From Gautieria morchelliformis (Eukaryota > Basidiomycota > Agaricomycetes > Gomphales > Gomphaceae), in assembly GCA_015179125.1 (NCBI GenBank), contig WHVA01000099.1, positions 1-64,000 on the forward strand: 64,000 nucleotides of DNA. Direction: 5' to 3'. Below the pieces are notes generated by a model, which saw only the letters and a program-made list of their open reading frames with translations, had not been told where the DNA came from and did no database searches. Numbering within the stretch: the first letter of the stretch is position 1; each line of letters opens with the position of its first letter. Made by a program: the position numbers and the translations under genes. Positions 46,013-53,577 of this stretch are shown here, piece after piece.

Positions 46013-46540
46013 AGTGTCGCAATGCCATACACCCTCATGCGACGCTACTCCATGGGTGCAGTTTAGGTGTTTGCAGCGAAGTCCCACACCCTCGCCACCT
46101 GCGGCACAGCAGTGTGCATGCGTCGTGGCAATGCAGAGGCCAACGCTAGCGAGCTGTCAATAAGCCTGCGGGGCCTTCAGGAGCCGGAATGCAGAGGTGC
46201 AATGGAGGCCTCAGGCGCAGTGAGTGCATCTACCTGGCTGAGCACTTACTGTGTCTGTTTCACGGCTGCAACTCGCTCCTCCAAACACGTGAAGTCCCAC
46301 ACATCCCAGAGTTCCTTGTGACGCTTCTGTGCACATCCGGCACTGCCACCCTTATGCCCGCTGGAGATCACCCCATGGGCCACACCACCCATGTGCTCTG
46401 CACCCAGTTCACGTGTGCTCCACAGGCCTCTGGCCTCACCGTGTCTGCTGCACGCCACCATAATGTGCCTCGCTGCCCCATTCAGCACCCGCTGCTTCCA
46501 GTGGCATCCTACCATACGCCCACTTAGGAGGATGTTCACA
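46013..46540. other. TG/CA-rich stretch without gene
   Basis: Same character as 14000-15486 (CTGCAC, GCATGC, CACATC). It ends abruptly where the AT-rich island begins. Confidence 0.4.
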
Positions 46541-47339
46541 TTGACAACAATGTACATTCTTCTAGGATATATGAGATATCTTTTAAAATATCAACCCTAA
46601 CTGAATTCATAGTCCATCATTTTGAGCAACTTGTATATTGTGGATATCCTAAATTTTTTTGAATGTTCTGATATTTTAAAAATATGGTTGTATGTGCTAA
46701 AGCATGGTGTGTATTCAGATAACAGAGCAATTTCAGAGAGGATGTGGATGACTATATATTAAAAGTATATATGACGCTTGTTACATGTATGATGATAGAA
46801 TGTAGAGGCGAGTATGGACTATATGAGTACACGTTAGAAGTATATATGAAACATGTTAGATGTACAATCACAGAATATAGAAGCAAGTATGGACAATACC
46901 TGTACTATATTATTATATATGGTTGATAGATCTGATTAGAAGGTATGTTTAAAATAATATGCATGTATAGTACAAAGATATGTAACTATTGATGTTTAGA
47001 CAATGGGGTATACACCCTTTCCTGGGGGAGCAGCAGACTGTGAGAAAGAACTTTGGGGCTAGGATTAAGCATGCCTTACAGGTGCTGGCAACTGCCTCAA
47101 TATTGATATATTTTATGAAATATAGATGAGCTCAGCTATATATACATATATATGACACTTATAAACATCCTCCTTATAGCCATGCACCTCCCTTGCATTC
47201 CACTTCTTGTCTGTGCTCCTCATACCTCCACTAGCCCCTCCATCACACTGCGCCATGCCATTTGGATTGGTGGTTGGGCCAAGCGCTGACTTGCCTGAAA
47301 CCTTATGCGTCGGGATGTCACATTCTAGAGGGGGGGTGA

Positions 47340-47593
47340 TGTCAGGGGACCACCCATTCTTCCCCTCATTTCCCTTCCTTGCATCTCTTCCTCACATCTC
47401 TTTCATTGCATCCTTCCTGTATTCCTCCTTCTTTTGTGCATCACCACCAGTGGTGTGACTTGCTTATGTCATTGTGTAGCAGCTATATAGTTTGTCGCTG
47501 AGGTAAGGAGATCCTCACTCTGTTCTCTTTGGATCTCCTCTACCTCAGGTAGCCGCTCTAGGGAGTAGAGCACCAGGTAGAGTCACCCTTACA
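47340..47593 (+). repeat. LTR with polypurine tract, remnant of a plus-strand Gypsy-like element
   Basis: TGTCAGGGGACC...CACCCTTACA, TG...CA tips, preceded by AGAGGGGGGGTGA as polypurine tract. About 170 bp of GC-richer DNA upstream (47165-47339) may be the pol tail. The downstream side is directly AT-rich island DNA. No second LTR in the window. Confidence 0.55.
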
Positions 47594-47733
47594 GATTATT
47601 TCTTTGTATTTGGTTATAACTATATCATCCATTATATGATACTTACCTTCTGGAATAATATCAATATTATATATGAAAAGAATTTCCTATTTGTGTACCC
47701 TTTCATTAAGCTTAATTCTAGACCATTGAACCA

Positions 47734-48418
47734 TTACATTATACTGTCAAAAGATAGCTTTTGAAAGTAATCACAATCTGTTTGACAAGGTACTTCTAAT
47801 CCTTTCTCAAGTTCATCTACAAACTTCTTAAATGCTTCAAAGCATTGTAATATTTTCTTTCTATTTTCCACAGGTTTCATACCATCACTTCATTATATTA
47901 ATGTTCCATGTGTTCTGAAAAAGGTCCAAAATGGAAATTTTTTTATTGCGAATAAGTATCCAATAAAATACTACTATAAACATTTTTAAAGAAAAAGACT
48001 TTCAAAGGGCCCCCACCCCCTTTCAATAAAAAAGATTAGAATGGGGGACCTTTGATGTCAAAAAATATTATTGTTTGTTGGTGAGTAGGCACCTACTCTT
48101 TTACATAAATTTCAGATTTTTGAAAATCATTTTTATACTCCAATTCCAAAAAAAATCGTATATTTTAGGATAAAAAAAGAAAAGATAGTATTTTATTGGA
48201 CACCCTTCAAACCTGAAAATATTTGCAATAAAAAAAATCCATTTTTCAAACCCTCAAACAGGAGCTTTTTCAGAACACATGGAATGTTATATTATATAAG
48301 ATAGGATATGGATAATATTGTGATGTGAGCTTATCACCGGTAGGTGAAAAAGAATAATTTGTTGATATTTTCTAGTTTTAAAATCATCTTTGAGATCATT
48401 TTCAAGTTTATTAGGCAT
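47734..48418 (-). pseudogene. AT-rich gene remnant of the island, split by a MITE
   Basis: Minus-strand segments with coding-like composition: 48418 leftwards MPNKLENDLKDDFKTRKYQQ then, after a frameshift, FSPTGDKLTSQYYPYPILYN, ending at the MITE edge (48290); beyond the MITE, MKPVENRKKILQCFEAFKKF and VDELEKGLEVPCQTDCDYFQ to a TAA at 47734. Read together they look like one small intronless gene. I do not recognise the family. Confidence 0.4.
47907..48290. mobile_element. MITE / hairpin element in the island (about 384 bp)
   Basis: Arms GTTCCATGTGTTCTGAAAAA (left) and its complement TTTTTCAGAACACATGGAA (right), followed inwards by TTTTATTG and TCCAATAAAATACTA in both arms. No coding frame. 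A partial direct relative lies at 48455-48540 (AAAGCTCCTGTTTGAGGG). Flanks TATATTA/TTATATTA may be the target duplication. Confidence 0.7.
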
Positions 48419-48440
48419 CCTATTTTATACAATGTTGTGT

Positions 48441-48560
48441 TGTGGGTATTGTAAAAAAGCTCCTGTTTGAGGGCTTGGAGATGGAAATTTTTTTATTGTA
48501 AATATTTTCAGGTTTGAGGAGTGTCCAATAAAAGACTATCTTTATTTTTTTATCCTGTTT
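48441..48560. repeat. Partial second copy of the island MITE
   Basis: Shares AAGCTCCTGTTTGAGGG, TTTTTTTATTG, AAATATTTTCAGGTTTGA and TGTCCAATAAAA with the right arm of 47907-48290 (opposite strand). Confidence 0.65.
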
Positions 48561-48675
48561 ACCTATAAAAAAATACTATTTATGCTTGTAAAAATGTTAT
48601 CCTTATTTTTTTTATCCTAATTGAAATGGAAACCATTTATATAAATGATTCCAGAGTTATTCTGGACTTTAATAG

Positions 48676-49584
48676 GAGAATATCCAAGAATACCGGTCTA
48701 TATTTAGATCTTTTGATTCATTGAAACCGATACACAATGCTATAACAGGCTCATATATTTTAACCCACGATGATATGGTGGTAGATCCAGAAACAAGAAT
48801 GGATTGTATCATAGCTATAGATGATATAATAACTGGTAACTCTGGTATAGACCTCTTCATGTTATTCATTCCAAAGAACATGCATGATAGCATACACATA
48901 AATTTCCCAATAAAGAAGGATGATATATGTAAAACTATTCCAAAAGTCATAGTCAGATTAGGGGGAGATCCTACAATGTTTTATGAAAATATACAGAAAA
49001 TAATATGTATATGGATTAGTAGGTTTGGTTTTAACATAAGTATACACGATTGTATATGGAATGAAAAATATATCAATGCGAGAAATGTGATGAAATCACA
49101 TATTAGCAGCATATCATATAGAAAGTGGGAGTAAAGGAAATATAGTTAATATGTCTCAAATAATGGCTTCAGTAGGTTCAATATATATCCACAATGATTA
49201 TGGAAATACTGATAAAGATAGTTTCATAGATATGGGATTCATAGAATCATCATATTTGGATGGTTTGAATCCTGATGAATTTATGTTACATCTGGTAACA
49301 TCTAGAACAGGTGTTATTAATACAGGTGTACAAACATCATCTACAGGTTATCTTAGTTGTAGGGCATCCGTGATAATGGCAGATTGTAATTTAGATTATG
49401 CTGGTAACATATGTGAACATGATAAACTAATATCACTTCCTGATATAAGTAAGTCCAAGCATTTTAACAATGTAAATATCAAGACCTAAAATAAATCCTA
49501 CATGGAATTTTATTCAAATGAAGGTTATATAACTAGAGATATCTATAATCCTAGAAGGAAGTTTCCTAAGATAAACAGATTTTA
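48676..49584 (+). pseudogene. Divergent multisubunit RNA polymerase largest subunit (RPB1-type) fragment
   Basis: Three successive frames with no intron. Frame one (48676-49134) has SLKPIHNAITGSYILTHDD, matching the pore/funnel segment around the conserved QDxxTGxYxLT, and later CIWISRFGFNISIHDCI, matching the LxxxGFSxGIxD helix. Frame two begins near 49105 with ESGSKGNIVNMSQIMASVG, the near-universal GSKGSxINxxQ segment, then GFIESSYLDGLNPDEFMLHL and SRTGVINTGVQTSSTGYLS, corresponding to the bridge-helix/trigger-loop block ([30 protein letters not shown]). Frame three (49490-49584) is a short tail. The active-site NADFDGD region is absent: the fragment starts downstream of it. It is far too divergent and AT-rich to be the fungal RPB1, RPA1 or RPC1. 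Likely source: a cytoplasmic DNA virus or linear plasmid. Confidence 0.8.
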
Positions 49585-49610
49585 AAAGAATATATCCTAA
49601 AAGTATCTTC

Positions 49611-49802
49611 TCATATGAATTTGTGAACTGGAGTTCTCATAGATTGTATATCTTTGTATGACATATTTTTACTCTTTATCTTATCATCTATAGCTTTCTC
49701 TTTACAGAATTCTTCTAACTTATTGATATCAAAATTCCTAAGTATTTCTCTTTCTTGCAGAACATTTATAGCATTTAATACCCATACCCTGCAAGTCCAC
49801 AA
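49611..49802 (-). CDS. Small AT-rich frame of the island, unrecognised
   Basis: 63 residues from 49802, convergent with the RPB1-like fragment and 27 bp beyond it. Lys/Glu/Ile-rich (NFDINKLEEFCKEKAIDDKI). The frame stays open upstream for about 15 more codons (SNDVPIVQNDILWTCRVWVL), so the true start is further right. Compact tail-to-tail spacing is virus- or plasmid-like. No family assigned. Confidence 0.4.
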   Translation of the reverse strand: MWTCRVWVLNAINVLQEREILRNFDINKLEEFCKEKAIDDKIKSKNMSYKDIQSMRTPVHKFI

Positions 49803-49890
49803 TATATCGTTCTGAACTATAGGTACATCATTCGAAACTCCCAGAAGTCATAGATCCAGATTTGTATATTTGAAAAGATTTTGTTACTCC

Positions 49891-50232
49891 AACAAGAGAG
49901 TTGCCATCATCCGTGCTCTATCCACTCGCAGTGCTCCCCATCGCACAGGTAGTCACACGCTTGGCTCGCTTGCCGCGCTCTCGCTAACATTCGCACAGTT
50001 CTTCGCAATTGGCCTCTTCCCTCTCCCTTTGTATGACCGCGTATCATGCAGGCTTTTTCCCTACGGGTTTTTACCCCCGCATGCCATCGCGCGCCGGCTT
50101 CACTTCTGTTCTCTTGACCTTACATACACTCCTATAGTACCGCGCATCTTGTTTCCTTTTGTTCATTACTGCCCTTGCTTACTCTCCTACCCCGCATCTT
50201 CTTTCTTCTTGTACATTAACATATCATCAATA
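49891..50232. other. GC-richer flank between island and Harbinger element
   Basis: Pyrimidine-rich; one 166-codon frame crosses into the transposon end and is not credible. No gene seen. Confidence 0.35.
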
Positions 50233-50424
50233 GGGTGTTTCACGCTTGCGTTTTCACGGCTTTTTCGGCGTTTTTTTGGTCGGATTTTTTGTCGCCATTT
50301 TCAGGAAACGTCAGCGAAAATGTGCGGAAAATGTACCAAGCGTGAAACAGGTCGCCACGCAGCAAGATAATTATTAGACTAAGTTCTTCTAGTATGTAAT
50401 TACTAAGACTCGCAGTCCCAAGTC

Positions 50425-51963
50425 ATGCCTGCTCTTCCCTTGCGTCAGCAGCTCCTGTCCGATGCCTTCACTTATAGCCGCCGGCTTCAAGAGGCTCGAC
50501 GCCAAACCCAAATCCAAGACCCGTCAACTAGTGACGAGGATTTGCCAGACACAGGAGATGAGCAGCGATTGGACACAGACTCGGATTCACTCTCTACACT
50601 GTCTTCGCTATCCTCTCAGGGTTCTGAGATGTCTGGTTTTGACACAGACATAGACATGGACTCCAGCAGCATATCCTCGGATGACGATGAGACTCACATA
50701 CGTCGGCTCCATACCCTTCGGAAGCACATCCATTCCCTTCACCACACACGTGTCCTTGGCCCCAACCGAGTCCACAAGGTTTCCCAGCTCGACCTTGTCC
50801 TACGCCTATATAAAAATGACGATCCCAAACGATTCCGGCGGAACTTGCGTGTGTCATCAACAACGTTTGATCAGTTGGTTGGAAGGTCAAGGACCACCCT
50901 GTCTTTATGAGTACAGGGAGTGTGCCACAGATGCCAGTGGCCAAACAGTTTGCTATTGCGTTGTTTCGGTTTGGGCACTTCGGTAACAGTGCATCGGTAG
51001 AATCTGTGGCCCAATGGGCAGGGGTCGCTGCCGGACATGTTACCAAATGTACACGCCGTGTTATGACAGCATTTGCATGTTTGCATGACGAGGCAATTCG
51101 GTGGCCCACGTCTGAGGAGAAGGAGGCGGCAAAGGCCTCGGTGGAGGCAGTGTCGTGTGTAGCCTGGCGTAATGGGTATGCAATGGTAGATGGCACCCTG
51201 GTCCCATTGGCCGACAAGCCTGGCTTCCATGGAGAGGCATATTTTGATCGCAAGTCCAATTACTCCCTGAATGTGCAAGTAAGTACTACTAGAGTATTTG
51301 CACAGCTTGTAACAGTTTTTTTTTCATAGCTCATTACTCTACCCAATCTTCAAATTATCGACTATGTGATCGGGCACTGTGGAAGTGCCCATGATTCGAC
51401 GGCTTTTCAGGATTCACAGGCGTACAAGCGCCATCACAGGCTCTTCTGCAATGGCGAGTGGCTATGGGCAGACTCTGCATATCCAGTGGAGTCCTGGTGC
51501 ATCACACCGTATAAACGCCCTGCTGCTGATCTCGACGAAAACCGTCAGTTCAACTTCTGGGTGTCCCATGTAAGTGCTTATTCACACAGTCATACCAGCC
51601 TCGTTGAATCATAATATCCAGGTACGCATACGCTCAGAGCATGCAGTAGGCTATTTGAAAGGAAGGTTTCAGTCACTCCAGGGCCTGCGTCAGCAAATCA
51701 AAGATGAGCGTGACCACAGACTTGCCGTCGAGTGGATTCGAACATGCCTGATTATACATGCATTAATCCATCAGATCGAAGCCAGTGAAAGAGATAGGGA
51801 TATGGAATATGAAGAGGAACTAATTGAACTTGGTTGCAGCTCGTCATCAGATGATGACGATGAAAGAGTCACACATGACCGGGGTGCCGGAAGACAAACG
51901 GCTGGGAATAGTAAAAGGTGCGAGGTCAAGGAAGCTCTATTTGCTAGTGGTCTAGTCGAATAA
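50425..51963 (+). CDS. Harbinger transposase (DDE_Tnp_4)
   Basis: Exons 50425-51278, 51330-51569 and 51622-51963; introns of 51 and 52 nt (GTAAGT...TCATAG, GTAAGT...TCCAG). N-terminal acidic Ser-rich region, then DPKRFRRNLRVSSTTFDQLV, QFAIALFRFGHFGNSASVES, the first catalytic Asp in YAMVDGTLVPLADKP, the second in GHCGSAHDSTAFQDS, and Glu in RIRSEHAVGYLKGRFQSL. Ends at 51963 after an acidic tail. One fault: the frame changes by one base near 50880 between FDQLVG and KDHPVF, so this copy is probably inactive or carries a recent 1-nt deletion. Confidence 0.87.
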
Positions 51964-51984
51964 CATGAGGGGGCGCGATAATTG

Positions 51985-53577
51985 TCAGGATAAGGATGGT
52001 TTGAAAGATACATCTCCTGTGGGGAAACTGGCTGGTGTAGACATTCCGGATATATTTGAGCCCTCCAGGAAATCGGCCAGCGGGTCATCCATGCCCATAT
52101 GCTCAGGGAAAGACATGTGCGATGATGTTGCAATTGATGAGTCAGACTGACCGTTGTGACGCATACGCAGCAATTTTACCTGCCAGTCACGTTCCTCTTG
52201 CCTTTTTTGATATTCTTCATCGCGCCTCTCAGCCCTGATACGCCGTGCTTCCTCACGCTCATCTTCCCGCACTTTTTGTCTCTCCTGTATTTCCCACTCC
52301 ACACGCTGCTTCTTGGCAGCCAACTTGGCTTGTGCGAACTCCAGGTGTGCCATTTTCTCCTTATGTCTCTGCTCTTCCTTCTGTTGCAGCCGGTGAATCT
52401 CTGCCATTTCAACTTGCTCAAATTCCTTCGAGAGACCACCCTTGTTAGACTTGTACCCCATGGATGCTTGTGCCTTGCCTTTGGTCGTCTTTTTTGTAGG
52501 AGTGTGAAAAGTAGAAACGGTGATAGACTTTGCTCGCATTGGAAATACTGACATCGATCTTTTTGCTGTGAGATCTTCCTTGCATTTCAAGGCGGCTGCA
52601 ATCCGTGGAGAACGCTTGGCACCAGGTGAATCGGTTTGGTGGGAGATATTGCCACTGTCTGAGGCTGGCCAATCAATCGCCACAGAGTCGTCACTGCCTA
52701 TCGCATTGTCGCCAGGCATATCATCTATTCCGCTCGTAGTCTCCTCCCCTCTTATTGTTCCATGCTCAGCTTCTCTCTCAGAAACCTTGCTATCAAAGAG
52801 CTCATCAAGGTCTCTTTGAGAGCCATGTTTCGAGGATGTCACCCCAACGGCATTGTAGTTGGGAAGCTCGCGCCACATGGGGTGTAAGTCGTCCCAAAAG
52901 GGGAAGTCTTCACGGATGGCATCTAGTAAGTCCTGTCAACGATATGTTAAGGGCAGCAGAACTGCTAACATACCCAACTTGTTTGCAATCTCTGAGCCTG
53001 GGGTGACGTCCTCTGGCTCAAGACCTGCCCCTGTAGCCCCCAACTCACGCACATGCCTTGCGTAAGTCTTTTTCAGGCTGACATCGTTTTGTCAGGCCAA
53101 ATCTCATCCACAACGACAATAACAAGCCTACCATCCCAGGTGCTGACCCACCGACTTTGCAAAACGCCCCGGGTCGCTGGCATATTGAACAGCATTATGC
53201 TCTTCGAAGATATGCTTGGCGAGGACACCATGGAGGTGTATTTTCTGGTCCTTTGCCTGTAATTTGCGCCGATTGTTGTCCTTTGCGTCGCGCGTGGAGT
53301 CGGAGAAGAGCTTGCGCCGTAAGTCCGGCTGGTCAATGAGGAGCTGGATCAGCGAGTGAGTCCACGCGTGATTAGAGTCCCATTTGATGTCGGGTGCTCT
53401 TTTCTTTTTCTTAGCTTTCACAGCTTCCCCATCATTGCTAACTTCATCCTCAAGTTGTTGGGCGGATTCGTCACTCCCAATAGCTTCGGCGGCTTCACGG
53501 ACCTTGATACTGGGTCGAATAACGCGTTGGGATTTACTAGAAGGGTTTGCTGGCATTTGGCGTTTAGCTTTAGGCAT
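51985..53577 (-). CDS. Harbinger Myb/SANT-like accessory protein
   Basis: Three exons: 53577-53132, 53077-52974 and 52932-51985, with introns of 54 and 41 nt. Starts MPKAKRQMPANPSS. SANT-like domain KWDSNHAWTHSLIQLLIDQP with QKIHLHGVLAKHIFEEH, continuing in exon 2 as LKKTYARHVRELGATGAG and exon 3 as AIREDFPFWDDLHPMWREL. A long helical, Glu/Arg/Gln-rich coiled coil follows (VEWEIQERQKVREDEREEAR). In the superfamily this partner binds DNA and brings the transposase to the ends. Reading frame intact. Confidence 0.82.

Follow-up and report, generated by a model that had tools for sequence, protein, structure and literature searches.

A probable endogenous relic of a Nucleocytoviricota virus, with a broken RPB1 gene, in the nuclear genome of the mushroom Gautieria morchelliformis

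Relics of giant viruses are already known from fungal genomes, mainly those of early-diverging fungi. Here we describe a candidate from a mushroom: an AT-rich island with a broken gene for an RPB1-type RNA polymerase subunit in contig WHVA01000099.1 of Gautieria morchelliformis (assembly GCA_015179125.1), of which positions 1 to 64,000 of the forward strand were analysed (the window, 64,000 nucleotides). We put at roughly 0.9 the probability that the island is an endogenous relic of a large DNA virus of the Nucleocytoviricota, captured in the fungal nuclear genome and then decayed. Among the described systems is a giant endogenous viral region of 1.5 Mb in Rhizophagus irregularis, related to Asfarviridae, in which a capsid gene was not found (PMC10640383, available excerpts). 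The same excerpts state that at the time of publication fungi lacked any identified double-stranded DNA virus. They cite relics of polymerase genes in the genomes of basal fungi, as well as virion genomes with fungal-derived genes from crustal fluids in which Ascomycota are the main eukaryotes. Mycodnaviridae, or giant viruses of zoosporic fungi, are cited in the accessible part of a second paper (PMC12993054). A relic in Basidiomycota was not reported in any of the full-text matches listed by our literature search, which had preprints and most subscription papers outside its scope. Mycodnaviridae of zoosporic fungi have reportedly been assigned to Imitervirales, in a preprint said to be by Myers et al.

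The RPB1 fragment in the window

On its + strand the island has two open frames (Table 1) that are parts of one broken RPB1 gene, covering domains 3-5. The second (49094-49486) matches the Pfam family RNA_pol_Rpb1_5 (PF04998) above its cut-off (expectation value, E, 6.8e-9) and Rpb1_4 just below (E 5.9e-5, 23.4 bits, cut-off 24.8), and the first (48676-49131) matches Rpb1_3 (PF04983) below the cut-off (E 7.9e-5, 23 bits, cut-off 28.9). In the PDB the second frame matches RPB1 chains, the best being 3h0g (E 9.3e-13), which we take to be from S. pombe; its 65 matched sequences at E up to 1 presumably include chains of RNA polymerases (Pol) I and III and of archaeal, African swine fever virus and bacterial enzymes. 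Searched alone as a single sequence, the first frame found no RNA polymerase among its five PDB matches up to E 10 (best E 0.31). RPB1-type blocks had been recognized earlier from the letters alone (the sequence-only reading), and the Pfam and PDB matches bear them out. Of the two frameshifts proposed at that time, one stands, as a frame change between the two pieces located within 49094-49131; a second, farther upstream, is possible, with no homology behind it.

The fragment is also shortened internally. From GF..D to GSKG it measures 100 bp (33 codons) versus 89 codons in host Pol II, 67-95 codons in seven viral references and 82 in the Neocallimastix protein P0004, which makes this stretch 34-62 codons shorter than in the viral references. 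The loop from VG to GF[IV] has 19 residues versus 31 in host Pol II (12 fewer). The three host subunits and the seven viral references all retain some form of a GKRIP..RTLPHF segment, which is missing from the window fragment and from two database proteins, P0001 and P0002, and also from Neocallimastix-type proteins. Domains 1 and 2 and the late part of domain 5 are unmatched in the window fragment, and domain 2 is the one that holds the catalytic aspartates. Because of the frame change, the internal shortening and the loss of both ends, domain 2 included, the fragment, judged by its family, cannot work as a polymerase subunit.

Searched against the genome (122 Mb, 1113 contigs), the second frame has five matches: the window itself, the host RPB1 genes of Pol II (C225), Pol III (C1048) and Pol I (C777), named from sequence, and a piece at C226:607410-607529 (- strand) that sits in a separate AT-rich patch and is 60-63% identical to the window RPB1. 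A second copy of the first frame was not found in the genome, its one other match there having E 0.24. Identity between the window piece and the three host genes is 32-48% where they align; outside the genome, the closest proteins are P0002 (67% identical) and P0001 (57%), unnamed database fragments in a search that found three proteins. Among PDB chains, the genome's own Pol II fragment comes nearest to 3h0g (E 1.2e-166), followed by chains of budding yeast and then of animals, so that the host genome is that of a fungus. The window fragment is not a host Pol I, II or III gene; the genome has extra RPB1 and RPB2 copies besides the host's three of each. In a tree of 125 columns and 17 of 20 rows (P0003, P0009 and P0010 left out), the window fragment, P0001 and P0002 form one clade (support 100/100). 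The approximately unbiased (AU) test rejects a grouping of the window fragment alone with host Pol II (p 7e-6), a result that mainly reflects how closely the fragment is related to P0001 and P0002. All tests on the RPB1 and RPB2 trees are limited by long branches.

A profile search gave 10 RPB1-like proteins, adding ones from Neocallimastix and Piromyces. The proteins P0004, P0009 and P0010 from these fungi resemble the window piece in being fungal, RPB1-like and without the GKRIP..RTLPHF segment, but they are only 35-40% identical to it. Their RPB1 blocks are shortened, and in these anaerobic gut fungi they too could be relics of viruses.

Linked pieces on other contigs

A further AT-rich island, on contig C148 (Table 1), is linked to the window at the level of both protein and DNA. 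Window positions 47797-47862 (- strand) match the last residues of a 187-aa open reading frame (ORF) on C148 (15 of 22 aa), and the DNA is 86% identical over 58 bp at 47806-47863. This DNA match scores 69.8 bits, whereas 300 resamples of the window island from a first-order Markov model gave 41.0 bits at best. A shard of 115 bp on C682 is 90% identical to C148. Both the C148 island and the C226 relic lie inside large contigs (240 kb and 722 kb, respectively) with flanks of host-like GC, and on one side the C226 relic is flanked by a gene of the DUF6533 family (E 1e-11), which is typical of Agaricomycetes.

The C148 island, which offers the best lead to the identity of the virus, contains a broken RPB2. 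An RPB2 family search of the genome gave 12 matches: the host genes (C198, C471 and C479), a broken duplicate of the Pol II gene (C371), the AT-rich pieces at C148:58721-60399 and, below the cut-off, one match on C1103 and one on C501. The C148 pieces match PF00562 with E 6.6e-46 and 1.2e-18 and lie in two frames, of 469 aa and, past an interruption, of 270 aa with domains 6 and 7. The C-terminal domain 7 is followed by the 187-aa ORF, tail to tail on the opposite strand, and then by a VETF-L-like gene on that same strand; RPB2 is thus stand-alone, not fused. In a tree with 11 viral rows of 20 loci (nine partial or near-duplicate ones left out), host Pol II and Pol III and no host RPA2, the C148 piece falls outside the references, its branch being very long (3.56). 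A placement with host Pol II, with Pol III or with both is disfavoured (raw AU p 0.034, 0.024 and 0.023), so these tests speak moderately against a cellular origin of the linked piece.

Two of the other RPB2 matches deserve a description of their own. The one at C371:11194-11565 is a broken duplicate of the host Pol II RPB2; part of it is near-identical to the C198 gene, and its GC is 0.48. The one at C501:49135-49224 is RPB2-like below the cut-off (E 0.055), in a frame of 57% GC, and is 78% identical to the C148 RPB2 over 60 bp.

The VETF-L-like gene of C148 was characterized through its relatives in protein databases. Its largest piece matches DUF5757 (E 3.6e-14), and the broken gene as a whole covers residues 7-686 of the database protein P0011 in two matches (51% and 65% identical). 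There are 11 such relatives, 576-694 aa long and all with DUF5757, the best being 67% and 61% identical; P0011 itself has 690 aa and is 67% identical to the largest C148 piece. Compared with viral models by Foldseek, an AlphaFold model of P0011 built from 11 sequences gave 68 matches at E up to 0.001, of which the best 50 were listed. The best 33 comprise 18 named early transcription factor (E 2.3e-28 to 2.7e-9), nine uncharacterised proteins, one B175L homologue and five without a name; the uncharacterised proteins and the B175L homologue, 10 in all, are also from nucleocytoviruses. A source is given for 28 of the 33: iridoviruses, pithoviruses, marseilleviruses, Orpheovirus, Solivirus, Solumvirus, an asfa-like virus, Moumouvirus and poxviruses, all of which we take to belong to Nucleocytoviricota. 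Against the PDB the model had four matches under E 0.001, all of them entries of TBP complexes (3.6e-5 to 1.2e-4), one presumably a human pre-initiation complex. P0011 is thus predicted to fold like VETF-L of Nucleocytoviricota, a hallmark protein of these viruses, and a VETF-type early transcription factor would by this fold be present on C148, and not in the window. By sequence, the VETF-L piece had only a chance-level match in the PDB (E 1); a collection of genome contigs searched with VETF-L yielded no relative, and a literature search on DUF5757 found no paper.

Island borders and surrounding repeats

The AT-rich island of the sequence-only reading is real and sharp, but its borders had to be moved. 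The GC in 100-bp steps is 0.19-0.40 over 47600-49890, versus 0.43-0.56 (47200-47599) and 0.45-0.59 (49900-50199) in the flanks and 49.8% over the whole window. The stretch 46541-49890, considered as a single viral island, was rejected, its left third being host repeats, and the island is now taken to span about 47595-49890. The outermost of these repeats resembles a miniature inverted-repeat transposable element (MITE), its inverted ends reading GGAGGATGTT...AACATCCTCC, and a TTA target duplication is apparent; it is also AT-rich (32.5% GC). Among the 41 matches listed for it (best 40 of 815 candidates), 38 are other copies, 96-98% identical, and the remaining three are the window itself (two) and the overlapping contig C227 (one). 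In the next repeat, an inner part at about 47338-47594 runs from TG to CA and looks LTR-like (long terminal repeat), with no target duplication seen. Farther to the right, the transposase of the longest repeat in Table 1 is, we assume, of Harbinger type.

Contig C227 is 99.6% identical to the window over 10 kb, from 48041 back to 38023; it thus reaches 447 bases into the AT-rich island before it terminates, and it may be the other haplotype. With host repeats on both sides of the island and a second contig reading into it, the locus appears from its sequence context to lie in a host nuclear chromosome. This evidence for integration comes from contigs.

Table 1. Features of the window and of the linked island on contig C148
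Feature	Position	Strand	Basis
Probably virus-derived AT-rich island, 29% GC	47595..49890	none	composition, RPB1 family matches, DNA and protein match to C148
RPB1-like fragment, domain 3 region, 152-aa open frame	48676..49131	+	PF04983
RPB1-like fragment from the end of domain 4 into the start of domain 5 (bridge helix/trigger loop region), 131-aa open frame	49094..49489	+	PF04998, PDB search, profile search
51-aa frame	47737..47889	-	match to C148 187-aa ORF
78-aa frame, sub-threshold DUF6914 similarity	49611..49847	-	E 0.002, 18.3 bits, cut-off 27
Imperfect inverted repeat, about 73% self-complementary, AT-rich	48167..48556	none	self-complementarity
Host MITE-like dispersed repeat, not viral	46526..47175	none	copies across genome
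Second dispersed host repeat, adjoins AT-rich island	47217..47594	none	copies 80-99%, best 40 of 305 candidates
Dispersed host repeat, right border	49913..50126	none	copies 74-90%, best 40 of 82 candidates
Host repeat with DDE_Tnp_4 transposase	50228..53000	+	99% copies on C637 and C440
AT-rich island with broken RPB2, 187-aa ORF and broken VETF-L-like gene	C148:57884-63443	both	family searches

The small opposite-strand frames that had been proposed do exist, at 47737-47889 and 49611-49847. The latter resembles DUF6914, presumably a fungal family, and could be a fungal host gene acquired by the virus, or a chance similarity. Portions of the inverted repeat at 48167-48556 were seen again by eye near 47900-47990; it could be a transposon or a viral repeat. 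Elsewhere, in window positions 1-40000, seven of 10 large ORFs tested match retrotransposon families (copia and other reverse-transcriptase types); among the remaining three, two have no family and one matches a gag-protease family just below the cut-off. No family was found for three further window ORFs, and Rfam and tRNA scans of the window found nothing.

Origin of the islands and comparison with known systems

A Nucleocytoviricota origin could account for these islands in the following way. Most likely, fragments of viral DNA would have been captured during the repair of chromosome breaks; in the virus, to judge from their families, RPB1, RPB2 and VETF-L would have been part of its own transcription machinery. 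After capture the DNA would have decayed, and the window piece is now dead in the fungus. The pieces on C148, C226 and C682 apparently come from the same or a sister virus. That host repeats lie on both sides, that C227 reads in and that two islands are enclosed in contigs 240 and 722 kb long supports the nuclear capture put forward in the sequence-only reading.

Several observations weigh against this origin. The window and C148 islands lie on separate contigs, and we infer their common viral source. For RPB2 the tests are borderline and depend on the 3.56-long branch. For RPB1 the tests do not reject a clade that joins the relics to host Pol II, III or I (AU p 0.176, 0.164 and 0.298, from a short alignment), and in the tree a database protein with the name RPB1 of Pol II (P0007) is placed beside the relics (83/86). 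Grouping with a cellular subunit, which the sequence-only reading had named as evidence to the contrary, is thus not rejected by the RPB1 tests (p 0.164-0.298) and only moderately disfavoured by those on the linked RPB2 (0.023-0.034). The model of P0011 has modest confidence (pLDDT 77.8, pTM 0.44), and global TM-scores are low (0.14-0.32 in the best 33 matches), so the VETF-L call rests on E-values and their consistency. DUF5757 was seen in one of 29 viral records holding RNA polymerase motifs, below the cut-off, and motif scans of IMG/VR viral contigs with RPB1, the RPB2 piece and VETF-L did not find the lineage. Capsid (PF04451) and VLTF3 (PF04947) had no matches in the genome; control genomes also had none, which makes both results uninformative.

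Other sources would have to account for the same pieces. An origin from a host RNA polymerase gene, as a decayed duplicate or a processed copy, would be compatible with the short RPB1 alignment, and the C371 copy shows that duplicates occur, but that copy has host GC and is in part near-identical to host Pol II. The window island, in contrast, has 29% GC, its database relatives are closer to it (57-67%) than the host genes are (32-48%), its VG-GF[IV] loop is 12 residues shorter and the RTLPHF motif is missing; a second relic lies on C226, and DNA links the window to the island with RPB2 and VETF-L. We regard a host duplicate as extremely unlikely. Contaminating DNA, viral or other, misassembled into a fungal contig is unlikely as well, and in our estimate very much so: C227 ends at 48041 inside the island, a sign that assembly is difficult there, but this contig is 99.6% identical to the window for 10 kb, the last 447 bases of which are island sequence, the pieces are broken, and separate islands lie within C148 and C226 between flanks of host-like GC, with DUF6533 beside the latter.

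Fungal cytoplasmic linear plasmids (virus-like elements) encode their own RNA polymerase and capping enzyme, and nuclear copies of them are known. A source of this kind would fit the AT-richness of the island, and three short pieces of the protein-primed DNA polymerase family PF03175 exceed the cut-off elsewhere in the genome (C437:50533, C780:31374 and C884:20496); these are on other contigs, however. What makes a plasmid highly improbable is C148, with its stand-alone RPB2, the opposite-strand ORF after domain 7 and the VETF-L-like gene; a fused RPB2-RPB1 gene, a trait of yeast-type plasmids, was not found there. Of the virus- or plasmid-derived origin first proposed, the viral half is accordingly supported and the plasmid half is not. 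Another phylum of large DNA viruses with RNA polymerase, such as Mirusviricota, would suit the RPB2 piece on its long branch outside the references, and mirusviruses carry RNA polymerase genes of a comparable general kind. All 28 sourced rows among the best 33 VETF-L fold matches are nevertheless Nucleocytoviricota, and we give such a phylum hardly any credence. Two of the three PF03175 pieces lie in AT-rich surroundings, and all three are possibly linear-plasmid relics separate from the viral islands.

If the islands are relics of Nucleocytoviricota, the question is of which lineage. For a placement among known orders, the RPB2 branch is 3.56 long among unnamed reference rows, and the ranking of predicted folds favours proteins of iridoviruses, pithoviruses and marseilleviruses. 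The suggestion of an unsampled lineage, already made from the sequence, is supported; in its full form, we consider the odds about even that mushroom-forming Basidiomycota are or were infected by an unsampled Nucleocytoviricota lineage, whose VETF-L is compact (about 690 aa) and whose RPB1 lacks a segment present in the cellular and viral references, and which left repeated small shards in the nuclear genome. Unbroken VETF-L relatives, 61-67% identical, exist in public protein data, and the lineage may therefore still circulate; unbroken relatives of 690 aa suggest that it exceeds one fossil. With relics in a mushroom genome, the direct genomic evidence that fungi have met such viruses would come to include Basidiomycota, and RPB1, RPB2 and VETF-L could serve as sequence baits for finding the virus.

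Among known systems, yeast cytoplasmic linear plasmids of the pGKL2 type are also fungal and AT-rich with a divergent RNA polymerase, but that polymerase is fused, and they are not known to have a VETF-L. The Rhizophagus region likewise lies in a fungal nuclear genome, and the available excerpts list genes for the large and small RNA polymerase subunits among its nucleocytovirus markers (PMC10640383). That region is described there as a single one of 1.5 Mb, in an arbuscular mycorrhizal fungus and grouping with Asfarviridae, whereas the pieces reported here are small broken shards on several contigs of a basidiomycete, and their VETF-L has its best fold matches in iridoviruses, pithoviruses and marseilleviruses. 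Mycodnaviridae are likewise Nucleocytoviricota associated with fungi, but, as far as the accessible part of PMC12993054 goes, they belong to Imitervirales and have zoosporic hosts; the best fold matches here are not mimiviruses, Moumouvirus being 31st. The VETF-L of Lymphocystis disease virus 2, Pithovirus and Marseillevirus match the model of P0011 in fold (E 2.3e-28 to 1.6e-24), but 27 of the best 33 matched viral proteins have 975-1496 aa, at 12-17% identity, whereas the relatives described here are compact, with 576-694 aa.

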